A DNA stretch of 64,000 nucleotides from Chloroflexota bacterium (GCA_030611885.1 JAUWOY010000004.1:1-64000); one strand, 5' to 3'. Numbered from the stretch's first letter, positions 24,153-31,665 are shown. The notes: generated by a model not told the origin, from the letters alone. Numbers and translations: made by a program.

Positions 24153-25427
24153 GTGAGACGAAATACTGTTGCTATGAATCAACCGCTAGCTTTGCGTGAG
24201 GCGCTGCGTATCTTTCGCCTGACACTGATCGTCAAGATCGTCTTTTTAGGCCTGAGCTTCCTGGCGATACTGGGGTTGGGAAGCTCAGCCCGGTTGGGAC
24301 TCCTGCTGCGCGTGGCACCCACGCTACTGCTGGCCCTGCTGGTGCTGCCTCCCTGGCTGGAGCGGGCTCTGGGCCGGCGATTCCTGGCTCTGGCTCTGGG
24401 CCTGGACATACTCTTTGAGAGCCTGCAATCAGCCCCCTTCTTTTTCGAGCGGCGAGCTTTCTGGGCTGAACAGTTGGGCCTGTCAGGGCCAGTGGGCCGC
24501 CACCTGATGGAAACACCGCTGACGGAGCCCTTCTTCTTCTTGCTCATCCCCTTGATATTGCTGGCCTGGGGCTATGGCCGGCGGGGCGTTGTGTGGGGAA
24601 GCACCTGGGCGACGATTCTACACCTGGGTACCGGCTACTGGGCATTGCACAAGGACGTGCTCACTCGAACCTTTTTCGAGGGGGCGTTGCTCCGCATTGC
24701 CTTGCTGTACCTGGTGCCACTCCTCGTCAGTGTCCTGGCCCAGCGAGAGCGGAAGCAGCACTCCGAGCTGGAAGCCGCCCACCAACGCCTGCGCCGCCAC
24801 GCCGCCACCGTGGAGCAGTTGGCCGTCAGCCGTGAGCGCAACCGCCTGGCCCGCGACCTGCACGACACGCTGGCCCACTCCCTGGCCGCGCTCTCCGTGC
24901 AACTGGAAGCCCTCCGCACCCTGCTAACCCACGATCCCGCCGCGGCCCAGAACGCCCTGAACGGTGTCACAACCCTGGCCCGAAACGGGTTGGAGGAGTC
25001 ACGGCAAGCAATCCAGGCCCTGCGCACCGATCCCTTGAAGACGCTGGGCCTGGTCGGCGCGCTGCGGGGCATGCTCCAGAATTTCCAGGCGCGGACCGGC
25101 GTCCAGGCCGACCTGAGCGTAGCCGGCCACGAGCCTGACCTGACGGACGAAGAAGCCCAGGCCCTGTTCCGCATCGCCGACGAGGCGCTGACCAACGTGG
25201 AGCGCCATGCTGCTGCCCAGCAGGTGACGGTGCGCCTGGCCTTTGGCAGCGACCGCATTGACCTGGTGATCCAAGACGATGGCGTAGGCTTCGATCCCGC
25301 CGCCGTGGACCCCGACCGCTACGGCCTGACCGGGATACAAGAGCGGGCGGCGATGATCGGGGCGACGCTTAAGGTAAGAAGCCGTCCGGGTAGTGGAACT
25401 AGGATTTGGTGTTCGTTGGAGAGGTGA
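24153..25427 (+). CDS. NarL-family sensor histidine kinase
   Basis: The 424-residue protein has four to five membrane helices in residues 20-200 with little extracellular loop, a short coiled coil, and HisKA_3 with the phospho-accepting His237 in RDLHDTLAHSLAALS. HATPase_c follows (DEALTNVERHAAAQ N-box, DDGVGFDP G1 box, GLTGIQERA G2). The start may be GTG 24153 or ATG 24174. It lacks an obvious extracytoplasmic ligand domain, so it likely senses membrane state, perhaps for the ABC exporters upstream. Its cognate regulator is probably the NarL-type gene at 31666, now about 6.2 kb away. Confidence 0.92.
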   Translation: MRRNTVAMNQPLALREALRIFRLTLIVKIVFLGLSFLAILGLGSSARLGLLLRVAPTLLLALLVLPPWLERALGRRFLALALGLDILFESLQSAPFFFERRAFWAEQLGLSGPVGRHLMETPLTEPFFFLLIPLILLAWGYGRRGVVWGSTWATILHLGTGYWALHKDVLTRTFFEGALLRIALLYLVPLLVSVLAQRERKQHSELEAAHQRLRRHAATVEQLAVSRERNRLARDLHDTLAHSLAALSVQLEALRTLLTHDPAAAQNALNGVTTLARNGLEESRQAIQALRTDPLKTLGLVGALRGMLQNFQARTGVQADLSVAGHEPDLTDEEAQALFRIADEALTNVERHAAAQQVTVRLAFGSDRIDLVIQDDGVGFDPAAVDPDRYGLTGIQERAAMIGATLKVRSRPGSGTRIWCSLER

Positions 25428-25440
25428 CGCAAAATGGGTC

Positions 25441-25529
25441 AAGCGGGAGGTCTAAAACTCTTCCCGCTTTTGCTTTTCGCGCGGGGCATCGCACTTGTGG
25501 TTGACTTGCAGGGGCTTCTGCTGTATAAT
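25441..25529 (+). promoter_or_regulatory. Terminator-plus-promoter repeat (TP unit), copy 1
   Basis: The hairpin AAGCGGGAGG / CTTCCCGCTT followed by TTGCTTTT is an intrinsic terminator. It is joined to a strong promoter: TTGACT (25501-25506), 17 bp, TATAAT (25524-25529). The block recurs at 26322-26414 and 27400-27497. This copy ends histidine-kinase transcription and starts the VapBC-like pair. Confidence 0.9.
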
Positions 25530-25611
25530 AAGAGTTGCCGCCGCAGTTGCTTCACAATTGTCACGATGCAGAATGGCGAAGCGACCGATCAAAACGTAGG
25601 AGGTGATATCT

Positions 25612-25893
25612 ATGGAGGCAGTTCGAGTTCAACAAGTTGTTGCAAAGGATGGTGAGATCTTAGTCAGAGGGATACCTTACAAGAAGGGTCAACTTGTTGA
25701 AATCATCGTGTTGCCTCAACCTCTGAAAACCACGCCACGTTCGCACTTAACTGTGCGTCAGTTGCGGCAGTCGGGGCTGATTGGCCTGTGGAAAGACCGC
25801 GACGACATTCGAGACAGTGCGGCCTATGCTCGTCGCTTGAGGGAACAAGCTCAACGGCGCGGAGACATCAACTATGATTTTGTTAGACAGTGA
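25612..25893 (+). CDS. VapB-like antitoxin
   Basis: I take the ATG after GGAGGTGATATCT, giving 93 residues (MEAVRVQQVVAKDGEIL...). The N-terminal 40 residues form a beta-rich swapped-hairpin-like segment, and the C-terminal half is helical and charged, as in antitoxins that wrap their toxin. It overlaps the PIN toxin gene by 20 bp. It would bind and neutralise VapC and repress the TP-unit promoter (family knowledge). The exact DNA-binding fold is not identified. Confidence 0.75.
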   Translation: MEAVRVQQVVAKDGEILVRGIPYKKGQLVEIIVLPQPLKTTPRSHLTVRQLRQSGLIGLWKDRDDIRDSAAYARRLREQAQRRGDINYDFVRQ

Positions 25894-26266
25894 CGTGATG
25901 ATTGACCTGTTGCGCCAGTATTCCCCAGCGACGAGGTGGTTCGACGCTCTAGACGACGAAGAAGAGCTGCTCTTACCTGGATACGTCGTGATGGAACTGA
26001 TTCAAGGTTGCAGAAACAAGGTGGAGCAAGAGAGATTGAGGCGCGAGTTGGCGACTTACGGCGTAGTGTGGCCCGCGCCTGCGGATTGTGATGAGGCGCT
26101 CGACGTTTTCACAGAGTATCATCTCAGTCACAATGCTGGGCTACTCGATGTGCTCATCGGTCAACTAGCGGTGGCATTGAGAGTACCGTTGTACACGTTC
26201 AACCAGAAGCACTATCGCTTTGTTCCAGGATTGCAGACCATCCAGCCTTATGACAAGACTACTTAA
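25874..26266 (+). CDS. VapC-like PIN-domain toxin RNase
   Basis: This 130-residue PIN domain begins MILLDSDVMIDLL, with acidic active-site residues Asp5, Glu41 (VVMELIQG) and Asp92 (AGLLDVLIGQ) and the C-terminal FNQKHYRFVPGL block. PIN toxins cut tRNA or rRNA using Mg2+ ions. It is directly overlapped by the antitoxin gene, so the pair is a complete type II module. Confidence 0.92.
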   Translation: MILLDSDVMIDLLRQYSPATRWFDALDDEEELLLPGYVVMELIQGCRNKVEQERLRRELATYGVVWPAPADCDEALDVFTEYHLSHNAGLLDVLIGQLAVALRVPLYTFNQKHYRFVPGLQTIQPYDKTT

Positions 26267-26321
26267 CGTGAGATGGTGGCCCACTCAGCCCACTGCATAA
26301 ACGGTAACTGTATACTTGTCT

Positions 26322-26414
26322 AAAAGCAAAAGCGGGAGGTGTGAATCGCCTCCCGCTCTTGCTTTTCGGGCCATCGTGCTGGTGGTTGACTTGGAAGGGT
26401 TTCTGCTGTATAAT
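26322..26414 (+). promoter_or_regulatory. Terminator-plus-promoter repeat (TP unit), copy 2
   Basis: AGCGGGAGG / CCTCCCGCT hairpin with CTTGCTTTT, then TTGACT (26386-26391), 17 bp, TATAAT (26409-26414). It is highly similar to copies 1 and 3. It lies downstream of the toxin and upstream of the 26456-27241 genes. Confidence 0.9.
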
Positions 26415-26455
26415 AGGACTTAGGCGGCTTACGCATAGTTTTGAGGGTGGTTGCA

Positions 26456-26560
26456 TTGAGAGGTGGCAGCTCCAAAGAGCAACGTTTCGTTATTGTGACC
26501 AACTACGATCTACCGGTAGCAGATTTCTACTCAAACATGGTGGGGACTTTGAGGAAGTAA
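26456..26560 (+). CDS. Possible 34-residue leader protein or gene remnant
   Basis: A TTG-initiated frame encodes a peptide containing KEQRFVIVTNYDLPVADF and ending 3 bp before the DUF5674 gene, with a GAGGGTGG stretch upstream. The composition (strand VIVTNYD then acidic helix) looks protein-like rather than random. It may be a small antitoxin-like gene or the stub of a longer one. Confidence 0.35.
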   Translation: MRGGSSKEQRFVIVTNYDLPVADFYSNMVGTLRK

Positions 26561-26563
26561 TCA

Positions 26564-26902
26564 ATGATATTGATTATTCGTGAAACCGCGACGCCAGAGC
26601 AAATTGAGCAAATGACTGAACAGTTTGGTAGTAACTTCATCAAACTGGCTGTGGATGTCAACCGTGAGATTCTAGCTGGTGGTGGAGAACTTCATGCCGA
26701 TTGTGAACAGGCTTTGCTAGAGGATAATAGCCAACAAGTTGATATTTGGGGCGCAGATTGGCATCCCGCAACCAAAACCGTCACCTTCGAGTCAATCATT
26801 AATCTCCGTCCACGGCAGCAGAATTTCAGTATGGAGGTCCAAGATCGCGTCTTGCGTAACCGCATAGAAAAGATTGCCCGTAGATTATTGGAGGTAGCCT
26901 AA
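26564..26902 (+). CDS. DUF5674 family protein
   Basis: The 112 residues start MILIIRETATPEQIEQM, with the recognisable core GGGELHADCEQALLEDNSQQ followed by DIWGADWHPAT and FESIINLRP. I recognise this as DUF5674, a small family of unknown function, frequent in cyanobacteria, Chloroflexi and candidate phyla and often near toxin-antitoxin genes. The conserved E-H-D-C-E set could bind metal (inference). The next gene starts at the base after its stop. Confidence 0.65.
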   Translation: MILIIRETATPEQIEQMTEQFGSNFIKLAVDVNREILAGGGELHADCEQALLEDNSQQVDIWGADWHPATKTVTFESIINLRPRQQNFSMEVQDRVLRNRIEKIARRLLEVA

Positions 26903-27241
26903 ATGGAGAATTCATTAAGAGCACGCTACATCAAAATGAACTGGCAACAACAACTAGGCAATATGGCCTCGACTTTGGCCCGTATCGCGAACAACGCCAC
27001 TGTTTCAGACCATGATGGAGTCGTGAGTATGTGTCTTCGTGAAGCCGCCTGTTTGATTGAGTGGAGCGCCCCCGTAGTTCCATCTGAATTTCTGTTAGAA
27101 CTGGCGGCTATGCAGCGAGAACTTCTGACTTGGCAACGGATTTGGCCCGTTGAAACCGTGCGTTCTCTCCTGGCTTTACATGCCCGTAACCAGTCCGACC
27201 GCATCTTACAAATAGCCGGATTCTATAACCTGGGGGATTAG
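26903..27241 (+). CDS. Hypothetical helical protein following DUF5674
   Basis: The 112-residue, almost all-helical protein begins MENSLRARYIKMNWQQQLGN and continues TLARIANNATVSDHDGVVSMC, and it contains two further amphipathic helices. It follows the DUF5674 stop with no gap, so the two are co-translated and probably interact. The size and helical form resemble antitoxin or HEPN/MNT-associated antitoxin-like partners, but no Rx4-6H motif is seen. No function is assigned. Confidence 0.55.
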   Translation: MENSLRARYIKMNWQQQLGNMASTLARIANNATVSDHDGVVSMCLREAACLIEWSAPVVPSEFLLELAAMQRELLTWQRIWPVETVRSLLALHARNQSDRILQIAGFYNLGD

Positions 27242-27245
27242 TCAC

Positions 27246-27596
27246 TTGTTACAGTCCAAGAAGGAAATCTTTCCCTTCGAGTCAGGCAAAACCTATTACC
27301 TGCCCACGCCTTACAACTCTTATGGCGCGGCCGCGATCCTGGCCGAGGCTATGGCCGCCTATCAAAGAGGAAAGCAATTGAACATGACCGAGAAAGCATC
27401 TAAAAGCAAAGCGGGAGGTCTAAAACGCCTCCCGCTTTTGCTTTTCGGGCTGGGCATCGTGCTGGTGGTTGACTTGCAAGGGTTTCCGCTGTATAATATC
27501 GAGCAACAAGGGATGGCCCACTTCTGTCCTGTCGTGGCAAGTTTGCTAGACGGACGAGATTTCTGCATAGTACACCCTAGCAGCCTGTCGGAGTAA
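27246..27596 (+). CDS. Doubtful frame running into TP unit copy 3
   Basis: It starts at a TTG 4 bp after the previous stop. The first ~50 residues (FPFESGKTYYLPTPYNSYGA, then AAILAEAMAAYQ) look like a real truncated protein with a PTPYNSYGAAAILAEAM turn-helix. From about 27400 the frame reads through the terminator-promoter repeat, so the last 65 residues are not native. It is best viewed as a gene cut short by repeat insertion. Confidence 0.4.
   Translation: MLQSKKEIFPFESGKTYYLPTPYNSYGAAAILAEAMAAYQRGKQLNMTEKASKSKAGGLKRLPLLLFGLGIVLVVDLQGFPLYNIEQQGMAHFCPVVASLLDGRDFCIVHPSSLSE
27400..27497 (+). promoter_or_regulatory. Terminator-plus-promoter repeat (TP unit), copy 3
   Basis: AAAGCGGGAGG / CCTCCCGCTTT hairpin with TGCTTTT, then TTGACT (27469-27474), 17 bp, TATAAT (27492-27497). 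No gene follows directly; the MITE and the M23 cassette come next. Confidence 0.9.
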
Positions 27597-27703: not shown

Positions 27704-27723
27704 AGGGGCAGCTATACGTAAGA

Positions 27724-27815
27724 ATGTCTGCCTAGTATGCCAAACGGCGATCTCAGTGGACATCTGTCCACCTAGTATCCCAAATCGGGTGACTGAATGG
27801 ACGGATGTCCAGATA
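27724..27815. repeat. Imperfect ~40-bp direct repeats upstream of the M23 gene
   Basis: Two and a half units share TGTC(T/C)(G/A)CCTAGTAT(G/C)CCAAA and TGTCCA(C/G)-TAGTA phrases. Each carries a TGGAC-N4-GTCCA-type palindrome (TGGACATCTGTCCA, TGGACGGATGTCCA). It could be an operator array for the following gene or part of a decayed recombination site. Confidence 0.55.
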
Positions 27816-27822
27816 GTAAGAG

Positions 27823-29612
27823 TTAGGCGCGCCCATGCACCACGCAATGAAGGAGGGTAGCATGACTCAACAGAAATCAAGTTGGATTGTCACAGTCTTT
27901 GTCATCACCGCTTGTATTATCGGTGTCTCTGGTCACTCAGCACAAGCTAATCAGCTTCTTCCTGGCAGACAGACAGCTGCAAGCACTGAAACCACGAATA
28001 TTGCTCTCGGGAAGCATGTTACGGTAGTAACCAATGGTGCCAACGATACTCGCGAAAGTCCAGGCCTTTATCCTTCCGACATCACTGATGGAAGCCTCGA
28101 TTACATACACTCCTCTTTCGCTCAAGAGGATGGCACTATTGGATACGTCAACGATGACTATGGTCAACTCATGGTAATTACAGTCACAATTGATCTAAAC
28201 GGCCTATATGATGTTTCTCGCATACGCTACAACATGGGAAACGTGTGGTATGCCAATACTTGGAATGCTGACTCAATGACCACCCCCTTTGGAACTACGA
28301 GCACCAACCCTGGTGGTTACTATAGTGGTGCCTGGACTGAGCATACCGGCAACGCCACCTTATCGAATGTAACGGTCACCCTAAAGAAAACACGAACGAC
28401 ATATTACACTGACTGGCTCTTTATTGGAGAAATCGAAGTATACGGCACACCGGTTAGCGGTCGGCCCGTATTCGATCTGCCTATCAATTATCCAGGGAGA
28501 GGAGATTTTACAGAACAGCAATTCATCACAGCATGGCAGGGATGCACGACATCTTTCTTTGATCATCGTTACCCCCTTGAGAATGCCACAAATGGCAAAG
28601 GGGATGGTGACTTAGTTCCATTCTGGGGCGAAGTGATTCCTGTTGGATACACACTTTTCGTAAACAGCTATGACGGTCATGAGGGATATGACTTTGATGA
28701 CTTATCTCGTTGTGGAGGAACATCCGTATTTCCGGTTGCAGGTGGCACTATTGTGAGCGCCTTTTGTGATCGGTTGCCCTCACCACCGTATAACTACCGA
28801 TACTATGGTTGCCAAGTGCGCATTAGGCATGGAGATACTGGATATGAGAGTCTATACGGACATTTACAGGAAGATAACACTTTTTCCAATACCGAAAGTC
28901 GCGTGGGGAGCACAGTCGAAGCGAGTGAGCAAATAGGCACAATTGGATGTACAGGCAATTGCTTCGGCTCACATCTGCACTTGAGCGTTTACTTTGAAGG
29001 AAAACTCGTTGATCCTAGTGGCTGGGAAGGCAGCTATAATGATCCATACGTCGAAAACCGTAGTGGGCCAACATCTTATCGTTTGTGGCTGCACTCTCCA
29101 AGACGGAGTACTCTTGTAAATCGCATGGAGGGAATGAATCTTGTGAGCCCTTCGAGTAATACGGTAGTGTCTATTCCATCAAATGCATACGTCGAAGACT
29201 TTGAGATCACTATTACAGAGCTCGCCCCCATATTGCTGCCAAATCAACTTGCGAGTGCCGGCCATGGATTTGTTCTAGAAGCGCGAGGACTTGGAGGGGA
29301 AACTATTGGACAGCTCAATCAAGATGCAACTATCGAGATCCGCTTCAGCGGAAGCGATATTGAGGGCATCCGAGCCAATACTCTGTCGCTGTACGCTTGG
29401 AATGTAGCTCTAAACGAGTGGGCGCCCTTGCCTACTACTGTTAACCTGCCCTCAGCAACAGCAAGTGCGAACACACAAAGCCTCGGAACAGCAATCACTG
29501 TTATACGAGACATGGGGTATATAGCATTGCTTGGTGAGCCATATCTTGTGTACCTCCCTATTGTTCTAAGGTGACAGGACTTCGCACTTGGCATTAGTGC
29601 TGCGCGCCTAAC
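27823..29612 (+). mobile_element. Integron-like gene cassette A (M23 peptidase)
   Basis: The 5' boundary GTTAGGCGCGC (27822-27832) fits the attC core GTTRRRY. The 3' boundary GCGCGCCTAAC (29602-29612) is its exact complement and fits RYYYAAC. In integron cassettes the first bases of a cassette and the start of its own attC are complementary in exactly this way. The attC after this cassette is interrupted by a group II intron remnant. No integrase gene is in the window. Confidence 0.6.
27862..29574 (+). CDS. Secreted discoidin-like plus M23 peptidase protein
   Basis: The start after AAGGAGGGTAGC gives 570 residues. They comprise a signal peptide (SSWIVTVFVITACIIGVSG), an F5/8-type C (discoidin-like) domain at about 45-205 (NIALGKHVTV... 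TDWLFIGEIEVYG), and an M23/lysostaphin-type peptidase at about 270-400 with zinc ligands HEGYD and HLHL (GSHLHLSVYF). C-terminal beta domains follow, and the end is YLVYLPIVLR. The terminal YLPxVxR tail is common in secreted Chloroflexota proteins and may be a sorting tag (inference). M23 enzymes cut peptidoglycan cross-bridges; the discoidin-like domain would anchor it to glycans. Its base composition is AT-richer than the flanking operons, consistent with an acquired cassette. Confidence 0.85.
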   Translation: MTQQKSSWIVTVFVITACIIGVSGHSAQANQLLPGRQTAASTETTNIALGKHVTVVTNGANDTRESPGLYPSDITDGSLDYIHSSFAQEDGTIGYVNDDYGQLMVITVTIDLNGLYDVSRIRYNMGNVWYANTWNADSMTTPFGTTSTNPGGYYSGAWTEHTGNATLSNVTVTLKKTRTTYYTDWLFIGEIEVYGTPVSGRPVFDLPINYPGRGDFTEQQFITAWQGCTTSFFDHRYPLENATNGKGDGDLVPFWGEVIPVGYTLFVNSYDGHEGYDFDDLSRCGGTSVFPVAGGTIVSAFCDRLPSPPYNYRYYGCQVRIRHGDTGYESLYGHLQEDNTFSNTESRVGSTVEASEQIGTIGCTGNCFGSHLHLSVYFEGKLVDPSGWEGSYNDPYVENRSGPTSYRLWLHSPRRSTLVNRMEGMNLVSPSSNTVVSIPSNAYVEDFEITITELAPILLPNQLASAGHGFVLEARGLGGETIGQLNQDATIEIRFSGSDIEGIRANTLSLYAWNVALNEWAPLPTTVNLPSATASANTQSLGTAITVIRDMGYIALLGEPYLVYLPIVLR

Positions 29613-29621
29613 AAGCGCATG

Positions 29622-29789
29622 GTGTGTCCTGAAGCTGTCAACGGCTAGCTGGTGGGAGTCCAATCGTGGTAACCGCCAGGAGGCCACGTAGCAGGCAGCC
29701 AGTGCTTCGGGCTGAAGAGCCCGGTGCGAGAAAACCGCACGCCGGGATCTGTGCGGGGGCTGTCGGGTGACTGGCAGTCCTACCGCGAT
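29622..29789 (+). ncRNA. Miniature group II intron remnant (domain I start joined to domains V-VI)
   Basis: It begins GTGTG (group II 5' consensus GUGYG). A typical domain V lies at 29717-29749: GAGCCCGG ... CCGGGATC arms with the GTGCGAGAAAACCGCAC inner stem and a GAAA-type loop. A domain VI-like stem (GGGGCTGTC ... GGCAGTCCT) and the end CTACCGCGAT follow. The first ~90 nt match the fragment at 31278. There is no maturase gene. It sits right after the attC-type start of cassette A, where group IIC-attC introns are known to insert. Splicing competence is doubtful. Confidence 0.6.
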
Positions 29790-29973
29790 GGCCGCTCATC
29801 CGGCTAATCTTCGATCCCCCCAGGCATCGTTTTGGGATGAGAACCTTGATAACTTGCCAAACCCCACCTGTCTGGGACGAACTCTCTCCATCTGCCCCAC
29901 GTATGCCCGGTTCCCTGCATAGGCTTTTTGCCTCAAATTCCAAATACAAGTACAATATATAGCACCCGGCTTA
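29790..29973. other. Unassigned spacer between intron remnant and attC-like site
   Basis: No ORF with a plausible start, no strong terminator and no repeat shared with other parts of the window was found here. It may be a decayed small cassette, since it ends at an attC-like site whose R'' box (GTTCAAC) does not match either neighbouring cassette. Confidence 0.3.
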
Positions 29974-30028
29974 GTTCAACACGGATTATGTGGCGGCTTC
30001 GCGTCACATGAATCCTTATACGTTAGCC
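29974..30028 (+). other. attC-like recombination site
   Basis: The order of parts is as in attC: R'' GTTCAAC (29974-29980, RYYYAAC), L'' GGATTATGTG, a GC-rich apical loop around GCTTCG, L' CACATGAATCC, R' GTTAGCC (30022-30028, near GTTRRRY). L'' and L' pair fully except for one extra G (CACAT-G-AATCC), which corresponds to the extrahelical base of attC sites. At 55 bp it is at the short end for attC. Confidence 0.6.
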
Positions 30029-31269
30029 TGCCCAGCATTACTCAGAGATTAGACTGTCCCGTAAGGAGATACATAATTAGGAGATGATGATGTGGGAAAA
30101 CGCCCTTTGGTTTATCCTTGGCGTCCTTGCACAATGGTTTATTGGAGTATCTTTTTGGGATACTAAGTTTGTACGAGCTTGGCGGTCAAGGAGACAACAA
30201 GAAAAACTGAACGAGGTTCTTAGCAAGAGCCGATCAAGCTTGACTGTAGGCACGCTTCAAATCAATCAGATGATGCCTCAGATATTCGAGCCACCGCTAA
30301 CTTCCAGTGACGTAAAGTGTCGTTTCGAACCGCGGGCGCGCTCATTACCCCCTGACCTACAAGAATTGGAGTTCAGCTATCTTCCAAAGCAGGTAAGTCA
30401 ACTGAGATCACAAGGAAGGGCTGTCGATTTTAATGATCTTTATGGTCTGAAATCGATAAGAATCGAACGTCCCCAACAACAAGGAAGAAGGCGTAACCGT
30501 CCAGAGTTGGTCTTTGAGCCAACCAATTTTAAGTATTACTTAATGACCAACGAGTGCCTGGATATCCCATTGCTCCCGGAGCTAACAGGAGACCCTGTTT
30601 CAATCCGCCAGCGTTACGAACTCGATCTCTCAGATTTTCAATGGTCTGATGTAGATAGAATTCCTATTCATCAATGGTTTGCGACTGTCACAGGTGTTGT
30701 CACAAGCGATAACCAATTAGTTGTCTCTATTCGAAGTAGTATGCAGGTTATACGCGAACTGACAGGCGGAGCCGCATGGCATAGAGCAAGTTTGTCCTGC
30801 GCTGAGGGAATGTTGAGACCAGTCGATTCAACCACACCTCCTCCTGTAGAAACGCCGTCCCCCTTTGCTACAGCGTTCCGCGCTCTCGATGACGAATTAG
30901 GTCTTAAGCACGGTGAGCACTACGTGGAATCACAGGTTAAGCTTCTTGGTATTGGCTACGATAAGAAACGTTGTCAACCAGTAGGTGTTTTCTATCTCGA
31001 ATTGGAAAACCTGGGGTTCCTTGACGTGTACAACTGTTGGGAAAAAGCCAAAGATAGACATGAGAACATGACCCTGATACCAGTTGCCGCTGAGCCCAAG
31101 TCGGTGGCAGAACTGCTACTAGGTAAACTAACCTACAAGGAGAGACCAGTACGTCTTTTCTCAAATCACCAGCAGTTAGGGGTTCTTTTGGTGGCCTTCT
31201 ACCGGTTAGGAGTGAAACCAATTGCAGATGCCTTAGCATGACTCGCTGCAAATCGAAGGGCAGGCTAAC
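30023..31269 (+). mobile_element. Integron-like gene cassette B
   Basis: The 5' end GTTAGCCTGCCC (30022-30033) and 3' end GGGCAGGCTAAC (31258-31269) are exact 12-bp complements specific to this cassette and different from cassette A. Both deviate from the consensus at the same paired position, which preserves pairing. The attC beyond the 3' end is interrupted by a second intron fragment. Confidence 0.6.
30084..31241 (+). CDS. Membrane-anchored protein with a Nudix-box-like motif
   Basis: In this 385-residue protein, residues 5-25 form one membrane helix (ALWFILGVLAQWFIGVSFW), so the rest is cytosolic by the positive-inside rule (RAWRSRRQQEK follows). The C-terminal half contains ATAFRALDDELGLKHGEHY, which resembles the REUXEEXGU part of a Nudix box, embedded in a predicted alpha/beta fold with VGVFYLELENLGF. 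Membrane-tethered Nudix-like proteins occur in defence islands, but nothing here proves the substrate. A GGAGATG site precedes the start. It is carried as the only gene of cassette B. Confidence 0.6.
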   Translation: MMMWENALWFILGVLAQWFIGVSFWDTKFVRAWRSRRQQEKLNEVLSKSRSSLTVGTLQINQMMPQIFEPPLTSSDVKCRFEPRARSLPPDLQELEFSYLPKQVSQLRSQGRAVDFNDLYGLKSIRIERPQQQGRRRNRPELVFEPTNFKYYLMTNECLDIPLLPELTGDPVSIRQRYELDLSDFQWSDVDRIPIHQWFATVTGVVTSDNQLVVSIRSSMQVIRELTGGAAWHRASLSCAEGMLRPVDSTTPPPVETPSPFATAFRALDDELGLKHGEHYVESQVKLLGIGYDKKRCQPVGVFYLELENLGFLDVYNCWEKAKDRHENMTLIPVAAEPKSVAELLLGKLTYKERPVRLFSNHQQLGVLLVAFYRLGVKPIADALA

Positions 31270-31277
31270 ACCCGCTG

Positions 31278-31440
31278 GTGTGTCCTAAAAGCTGTCGTCT
31301 GCTAGTTGGTGCGAGTCCAATCGTGGTAACTGTCAGGAGGCCACGTAGCAGGCAATCAGTGCTACCGGGTGACCGGATGTGCTGAAGCGATGTAACCTCC
31401 TGGGAAAGGGGTGCAAGACCTAGGACAGTTGAGGAGAGGC
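31278..31440 (+). ncRNA. Group II intron 5' fragment
   Basis: GTGTGTCC at 31278 and the next ~95 nt (GAGTCCAATCGTGGTAAC, GGAGGCCACGTAGCAGGCA, AGTGCT) match the start of the intron remnant at 29622. Further domain I-like sequence continues to about 31440, and there is no domain V. Like the first copy it follows directly after an attC-type R'' box (GGCTAAC). Confidence 0.55.
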
Positions 31441-31486
31441 GTGCGATTGATGTAGAGGGAGATATCGAACATTAGACAAGCAGTGG

Positions 31487-31548
31487 AAAAGGGAGCGCGG
31501 CTTAAGTCCGTGCTCCCTTTTGACGCGCTCCGTTCCGGGTGGTATAAT
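31487..31548 (+). promoter_or_regulatory. Terminator fused to promoter of the response regulator
   Basis: AAAAGGGAGC (31487-31496) pairs with GCTCCCTTTT (31512-31521), giving a terminator whose T-tail overlaps the -35: TTGACG (31520-31525), 17 bp, TATAAT (31543-31548). It is the same architecture as the TP units but of unrelated sequence. Confidence 0.85.
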
Positions 31549-31665
31549 TTGCACAGGATTTTCTTAAGTCACCCTTGCGAAGGCTGTGAATGGTGGGCGA
31601 TAGACAGCTTTCGGTGGACGGAGGCGCTTTCGGCTTCGCAAGGGTTCTCGCTGGAAAGGTGACGT

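Follow-up and report, generated by a model that had tools for sequence, protein, structure and literature searches.

A probable chromosomal-integron remnant of Chloroflexota with sense-oriented group II introns in its cassette attC sites

Introduction

Integrons have previously been reported in Chloroflexota (PMC9668308). Group II introns are known from integron cassette arrays, where the group IIC-attC introns (S.ma.I2, for example) occupy the attC of several cassettes, lying on the bottom strand, opposite to the cassette genes, at TTGT/T in the R'' box, and having a CGC triad (PMC7923331). Non-IIC introns, truncated copies among them, have also been found in cassette arrays, as with the IIB intron UHB.I2 and H.ha.F1/F2 in arrays of halophiles; UHB.I2, from a soda-lake array, is oriented like the genes, lies after an attC and has the ends UUGCG..GU (PMC7923331).

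Here we analyse 64,000 nucleotides from a Chloroflexota bacterium (GCA_030611885.1 JAUWOY010000004.1:1-64000; hereafter the window), and put at roughly 85% the probability that its 27.7–31.5 kb region is a chromosomal-integron remnant whose cassette attCs took in ORF-less group II introns in sense orientation. The region is like chromosomal integrons and CALINs in its cassette-specific ends, its attI-like site, and the canonical attCs and integrase remnants of the same genome, but has no integrase beside the array, and each cassette attC is interrupted by an intron. The introns resemble the group IIC-attC elements in residing in the attC of several cassettes, yet they lie on the sense strand at the L'' edge (CGCTG|CAGGCGAC, rather than bottom-strand TTGT/T), have an AGC triad and contain no reading frame. 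Unlike UHB.I2, they lie inside the attC, have the ends GTGTG..AY and recur in many cassettes. They fit neither pattern. No report of a sense-strand insertion inside attC was found in the literature searched, a body of text mostly outside subscription journals that includes PMC7923331 and PMC4424553.

Results

Two cassettes, A (27822–29612) and B (30022–31269), are bounded by perfect inverted ends of 11 and 12 bp, respectively. Cassette A starts with GTTAGGCGCGC (27822–27832, plus strand), the exact reverse complement of its right end GCGCGCCTAAC on the R'' side (29602–29612), and cassette B starts with GTTAGCCTGCCC (30022–30033, plus strand), the exact reverse complement of its R''-side right end GGGCAGGCTAAC (31258–31269). 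Each start is complementary to the R'' side of its own cassette, as in an integron gene cassette. The preliminary description, made from the sequence of the window, had pointed to this complementarity within but not between the cassettes, and it recurs in relatives and is abolished by swapping. In the swap control, 300 permutations exchanged the ends between loci across 32 copies that have an AAC core. An upstream perfect inverted partner of at least 12 bp is present at 6 of the 32 sites, against a mean of 0.09 with swapped ends, and one of at least 10 bp at 9, against 0.8 (0.3 for at least 11 bp); the comparison is conservative, because the exchanged ends have the R'' consensus in common. The partners measure 15 bp in L135, 13 bp in L149, L140 and L136, 12 bp in window cassette B and L139, 11 bp in window cassette A, and 10 bp in L138 and in C24, a further cassette of the window's own genome; in about two-thirds of the junction copies described below, the start partner is undetectable. 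The cassette-specific ends of the window are not a product of chance.

Each pair of inverted ends encloses a single gene. A gene between perfect inverted ends resembles a small transposon, and the ends could be read as terminal inverted repeats with the group II pieces as bystanders, one of the outcomes that the preliminary description had named together as its refutation. However, each cassette has its own ends, which match only each other, there is no transposase inside, and the left neighbours are attI-like or, as immediately left of the cassette start in L136 and L135, a complete canonical attC. We consider a transposon hardly credible.

The gene of cassette A (27862–29574, plus strand) encodes an M23-family peptidase (Pfam PF01551, 53.2 bits, with matches to M23 peptidases in the PDB). 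Its reading frame is open from 27835, the ATG at 27862 has a good ribosome-binding site, and the protein is probably exported; of the discoidin–M23 architecture proposed earlier, the peptidase part stands, and the discoidin part finds no support in family searches. The gene of cassette B (30084–31241, plus strand) encodes 385 amino acids with an N-terminal hydrophobic stretch. Family searches assigned the protein to no family and lend no support to an earlier Nudix-like reading, and its single-sequence structure model (pLDDT 38.8) is too poor for a fold to be read.

What the preliminary description had missed is that a group II intron remnant divides each cassette's own attC, which begins right at the 3' end of the cassette. 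The left half of the cassette A attC, GCGCGCCTAAC followed by AAGCGCATG (29602–29621, plus strand), leads through a junction common to about 35 copies into intron remnant A (29622–29789, plus strand), which is internally deleted, a piece of domain I (to 29715) being joined to domains V–VI; the latter match Rfam RF00029 at 29715–29789 with 42.2 bits, above the curated threshold. Likewise, the left half of the cassette B attC, GGGCAGGCTAAC followed by ACCCGCTG (31258–31277, plus strand), the latter also found 3' of R'' in the intact attC of L100, is followed by remnant B (31278–31460, plus strand). This comprises domains I–IV, its 3' part being lost, and matches RF02003 at 31303–31460 (53.0 bits, above the curated threshold). 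An 84-nt repeat of 86% identity lies directly behind both right ends (29632–29715 and 31289–31372). Both remnants start right after the R'' side in sense orientation, on the same strand as the window genes. Within the window, neither cassette 3' end has a complete attC with R'', L'', L' and R': a search for an L''/L' stem behind intron A found none (66 of 300 shuffles were as good), and no L''/L'/R' is recognisable behind intron B.

The window carries parts of a group II intron, and the complete copy is found in a relative, L149 (JAUWJD010000025.1), where a cassette with 13-bp inverted ends has an ORF-less intron of 285 nt behind its R'' side. This intron starts with GTGTG and ends with CCCTAC, folds with a z-score of -4.3, has a domain V (GAGCCGTATG..CACGTACGGTTC) with an AGC triad, and shows a bulged A in domain VI, placed seven bases before the 3' end; domains I to VI, the GUGYG start, the AY bulge of domain V and the AY end of a group II intron are all present. 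Rfam group II matches are above threshold in L149 and likewise in L147, L151, L152 and L153, the last with a second sort of intron, which resembles that of window A and ends in AGTCCTACCGCGAT.

The joined exons of L149, GACCTAACAATGCGCTG|CAGGCGACGCCG..., align with an intron-free attC of the window's own genome (C40:16314-16441) at 110 of 126 aligned bases, with no gap at the junction, and on this sequence match C40:16314-16441 is identified as the empty site of the intron. Because one attC is available both with and without the intron, in relatives and in the genome itself, the insertion point is fixed to the base. Downstream of the intron in L149, L147 and L139, the 3' exon restores an L''/L' stem with a single bulge (2, 0 and 0 of 300 shuffles, respectively, were as good).

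The junction R''-nnnCGCTG|GTGTG occurs in 11 of the 249 genomes searched, that of the window included. A profile yields about 35 junction copies, nearly all reading R''-nnnCGCTG|GTGTGYCC, a number that refers to copies within the retrieved stretches, which were picked by hits. Within the window's own genome, similar 5' pieces are found on C24, C28, C38 (two), C40, C64, C69 and C84, and in their alignment conservation runs from an R''-like box YYYAAC through a few variable bases and CGCTG into GTGTG. A pattern scan of 84,980 species located the junction in 10 contigs, several of them apparently shared with the 11-genome set, and all are Chloroflexota MAGs (Anaerolineae, Ardenticatenales, Anaerolineales), in agreement with the host group proposed earlier; no exact copy of the junction is present in viral contigs.

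That copies are alike within a genome, with conservation beginning at the R'' box, might suggest that an intron entered one attC a single time and then spread with the cassettes by recombination or homogenisation, like the repeats of large arrays. The surviving right halves, however, vary in L'' and loop (CAGGCGACGCCG, CACCCGACGCGG, GAGCGGACCCGG, GCACGCCGACGC) as unrelated attCs do, and filled and empty versions of one attC stand side by side in the lineage, so that we find a single entry unlikely. As L'' differs from copy to copy, the insertions were probably separate.

Integron attC is targeted by these introns and by the group IIC-attC lineage alike, and exon pairing in IIC is short, so one may ask whether we are looking at that known lineage from the other side. 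This seems to us quite improbable, less likely still than a single entry, as the orientation is sense, the insertion point is CGCTG|CAGSCGAC and not TTGT/T in R'', and the triad of domain V is AGC and not CGC (PMC7923331). From its sequence, the conserved CAGTGC of domain I may form an EBS1–IBS1 pairing with (G)CGCTG in the 5' exon.

No reverse transcriptase was found with introns of this junction. The GIIM domain occurs in 1 of 10 element-bearing genomes, on a contig other than that of the element, and matches to TIGR04416 lie on contigs other than those of the elements, except for a weak partial match (40.7 bits) at C40:18188-18613, which lies about 3 kb past the element of that contig. The reverse transcriptase of C22 was considered as the introns' protein and rejected: it is part of a different kind of intron, and a tblastn search detected no relative of it near the elements. 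At that locus (C22:260-2240), near the contig end, a protein-coding gene is broken up by this other, reverse transcriptase-bearing group II intron.

The sequence to the left of cassette A resembles what precedes cassette starts in L149 (at two positions), L132 and C40. From these five sites a profile was built with integrase-adjacent sequence left out. It matches the C97 stretch between a truncated intI and the first attC (E 1.6e-5) and, in L079, the site next to the integrase (E 5.7e-5), where the match ends exactly at the cassette boundary; on L064 the match is weak (E 1.8) and in the right place. Because a profile built without integrase-adjacent DNA finds such DNA, we term 27712–27822 (plus strand), the left edge of the array, attI-like. 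It adjoins the first cassette, as attI does in an integron.

Neither an integrase nor an integrase remnant was found within the 64-kb window, and hence none beside the array. The genome, a draft of 108 contigs for which genome-wide statements rest on searches and on stretches chosen by hits, has two truncated integrase genes, covering model positions 1–148 of 315 (C97:25373-25816) and 1–42 of 315 (C107:40613-40738); the remaining matches of the integrase model are weak and to other tyrosine recombinases. The genome also has canonical attCs at C97 and C40. A search for an integrase and for more cassettes elsewhere in the genome had been proposed earlier, and it turned up the truncated integrase genes and, on C24, a further cassette. 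Across the 120 genomes searched, this one included, 37 have an integron integrase (32 above the curated cut-off). The earlier designation of the array as CALIN-type is right in that it lacks an integrase, and falls short in that the left edge is an attI-like site, which makes the array (27.7–31.5 kb) an integrase-less integron remnant and more than a CALIN; the earlier integron reading mostly holds.

Several further features of these regions may be recorded. The C97 locus (C97:24102-24226, 25373-25816) is a decayed integron with an integrase cut after residue 148, attI-like DNA and a 125-nt canonical attC, with a CPBP-like protease gene between them. L149 has two attI-like sites on one contig (1137–1255 and 2785–2904), of which the second follows immediately on the first cassette's intron-split attC and precedes another GTTGGGC start; the pair recalls the attI-type cassettes described in PMC12901181. 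The minus strand of C24 (locus L044, 940–1760) carries three copies of CGTATAAGCATTG, all at cassette-like boundaries; in one case the sequence encloses about 58 bp, a possible mini-cassette. Left of the attI-like site of the window (25603–27241), where an integrase gene would be expected, there are a gene for a VapC-like PIN toxin, preceded by a small gene, as well as a DUF5674 gene and a small gene of no known kind. Near-identical units at 26322–26415 and 27408–27498 consist of a strong terminator-like hairpin and then a TTGACT–TATAAT promoter-like pair, and a similar arrangement is present at 31487–31550.

Between the two cassettes lies an attC-like boundary hairpin (29974–30028, plus strand), which runs from R'' GTTCAAC to R' GTTAGCC and ends at the variable start of cassette B. 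It had been proposed as an attC between the cassettes, with all four boxes and one extrahelical base. The hairpin and the R''/L''/L'/R' layout are there, as is the boundary, but the site is not the plain attC of cassette A. Its arms are paired with one unpaired G, which in the plus strand lies on L', whereas the canonical attCs of the lineage have their extrahelical base on the opposite arm, the L'' arm of the top strand (L158 has no unpaired base); R' misses the consensus GTTRRRY at one position; and the folding energy is unremarkable by itself (z -1.4 and -1.7). The hairpin belongs to a module (29905–30028) found in 18 of the 249 genomes searched, including this one, in which R'' GTTCAAC is constant, the arms are paired and the loop varies in length. 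A promoter-like pair TTGCCT-17-TACAAT, read from the sequence at 29928–29956 (plus strand), precedes the hairpin and is kept in L158, L159, L161 and L162. Copies read whole have the right edge CGTTR with unrelated DNA beyond, and an inverted partner of the sequence that starts at GTT lies further downstream, 13 bp long in L160, 9 bp in L164 and 12 bp in the window, which together mark the module as a recombination boundary. The gene in front of the module in L159 is an ordinary chromosomal one, acyl-CoA dehydrogenase-like as judged from the reading frame.

On this evidence, 29974–30028 is a conserved cassette-boundary site that is attC-like and not canonical. The module could represent either a promoter cassette's attC or a dispersed landing site; its copies (window 29905–30028; L157–L168) have the look of a dispersed landing site that carries a promoter and receives single cassettes. 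An attI was considered as well, but the module is not called one, as a profile search of a set of loci that included integrase loci found it only in the window, L138 and L125/L140.

Discussion

The history that we propose for the region begins with an integrase, since lost, that would have placed cassettes A and B beside the attI-like site. Each cassette-terminal attC would then have been invaded by a small group II intron lacking an ORF, which inserted in sense orientation into the plus strand where the R'' side meets the L'' box (CGCTG|CAGSCGAC). Entry would have been by retrohoming, that is, by insertion of intron RNA into attC DNA, with the protein probably supplied in trans. Decay would have followed: both introns have lost parts, and the right halves of the two attCs in the window can no longer be recognised. 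With R'' and L'' apart, the attC hairpin should be unable to form properly, so recombination would have been lost through the splitting of the attC, and the split attCs and the truncated integrases of the genome together would leave the cassettes locked in place. An intact intron could splice out of RNA and leave the genes untouched.

In more general terms, we lean towards the view that ORF-less, non-IIC introns of Chloroflexota home to the sense strand of attC, with a reverse transcriptase acting in trans, and both ride with the cassettes and jam them. In this view, exon-binding sequences would be provided by the R'' box together with the beginning of L''.

The finding adds a second mode in which group II introns exploit integron recombination sites, on the other strand, at another position and apparently with another ribozyme class. 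It makes it possible to test whether an intron inside an attC locks its cassette or is tolerated. It also suggests that attC search models miss cassettes whose attC is split, and that the integrons of Chloroflexota may be undercounted.
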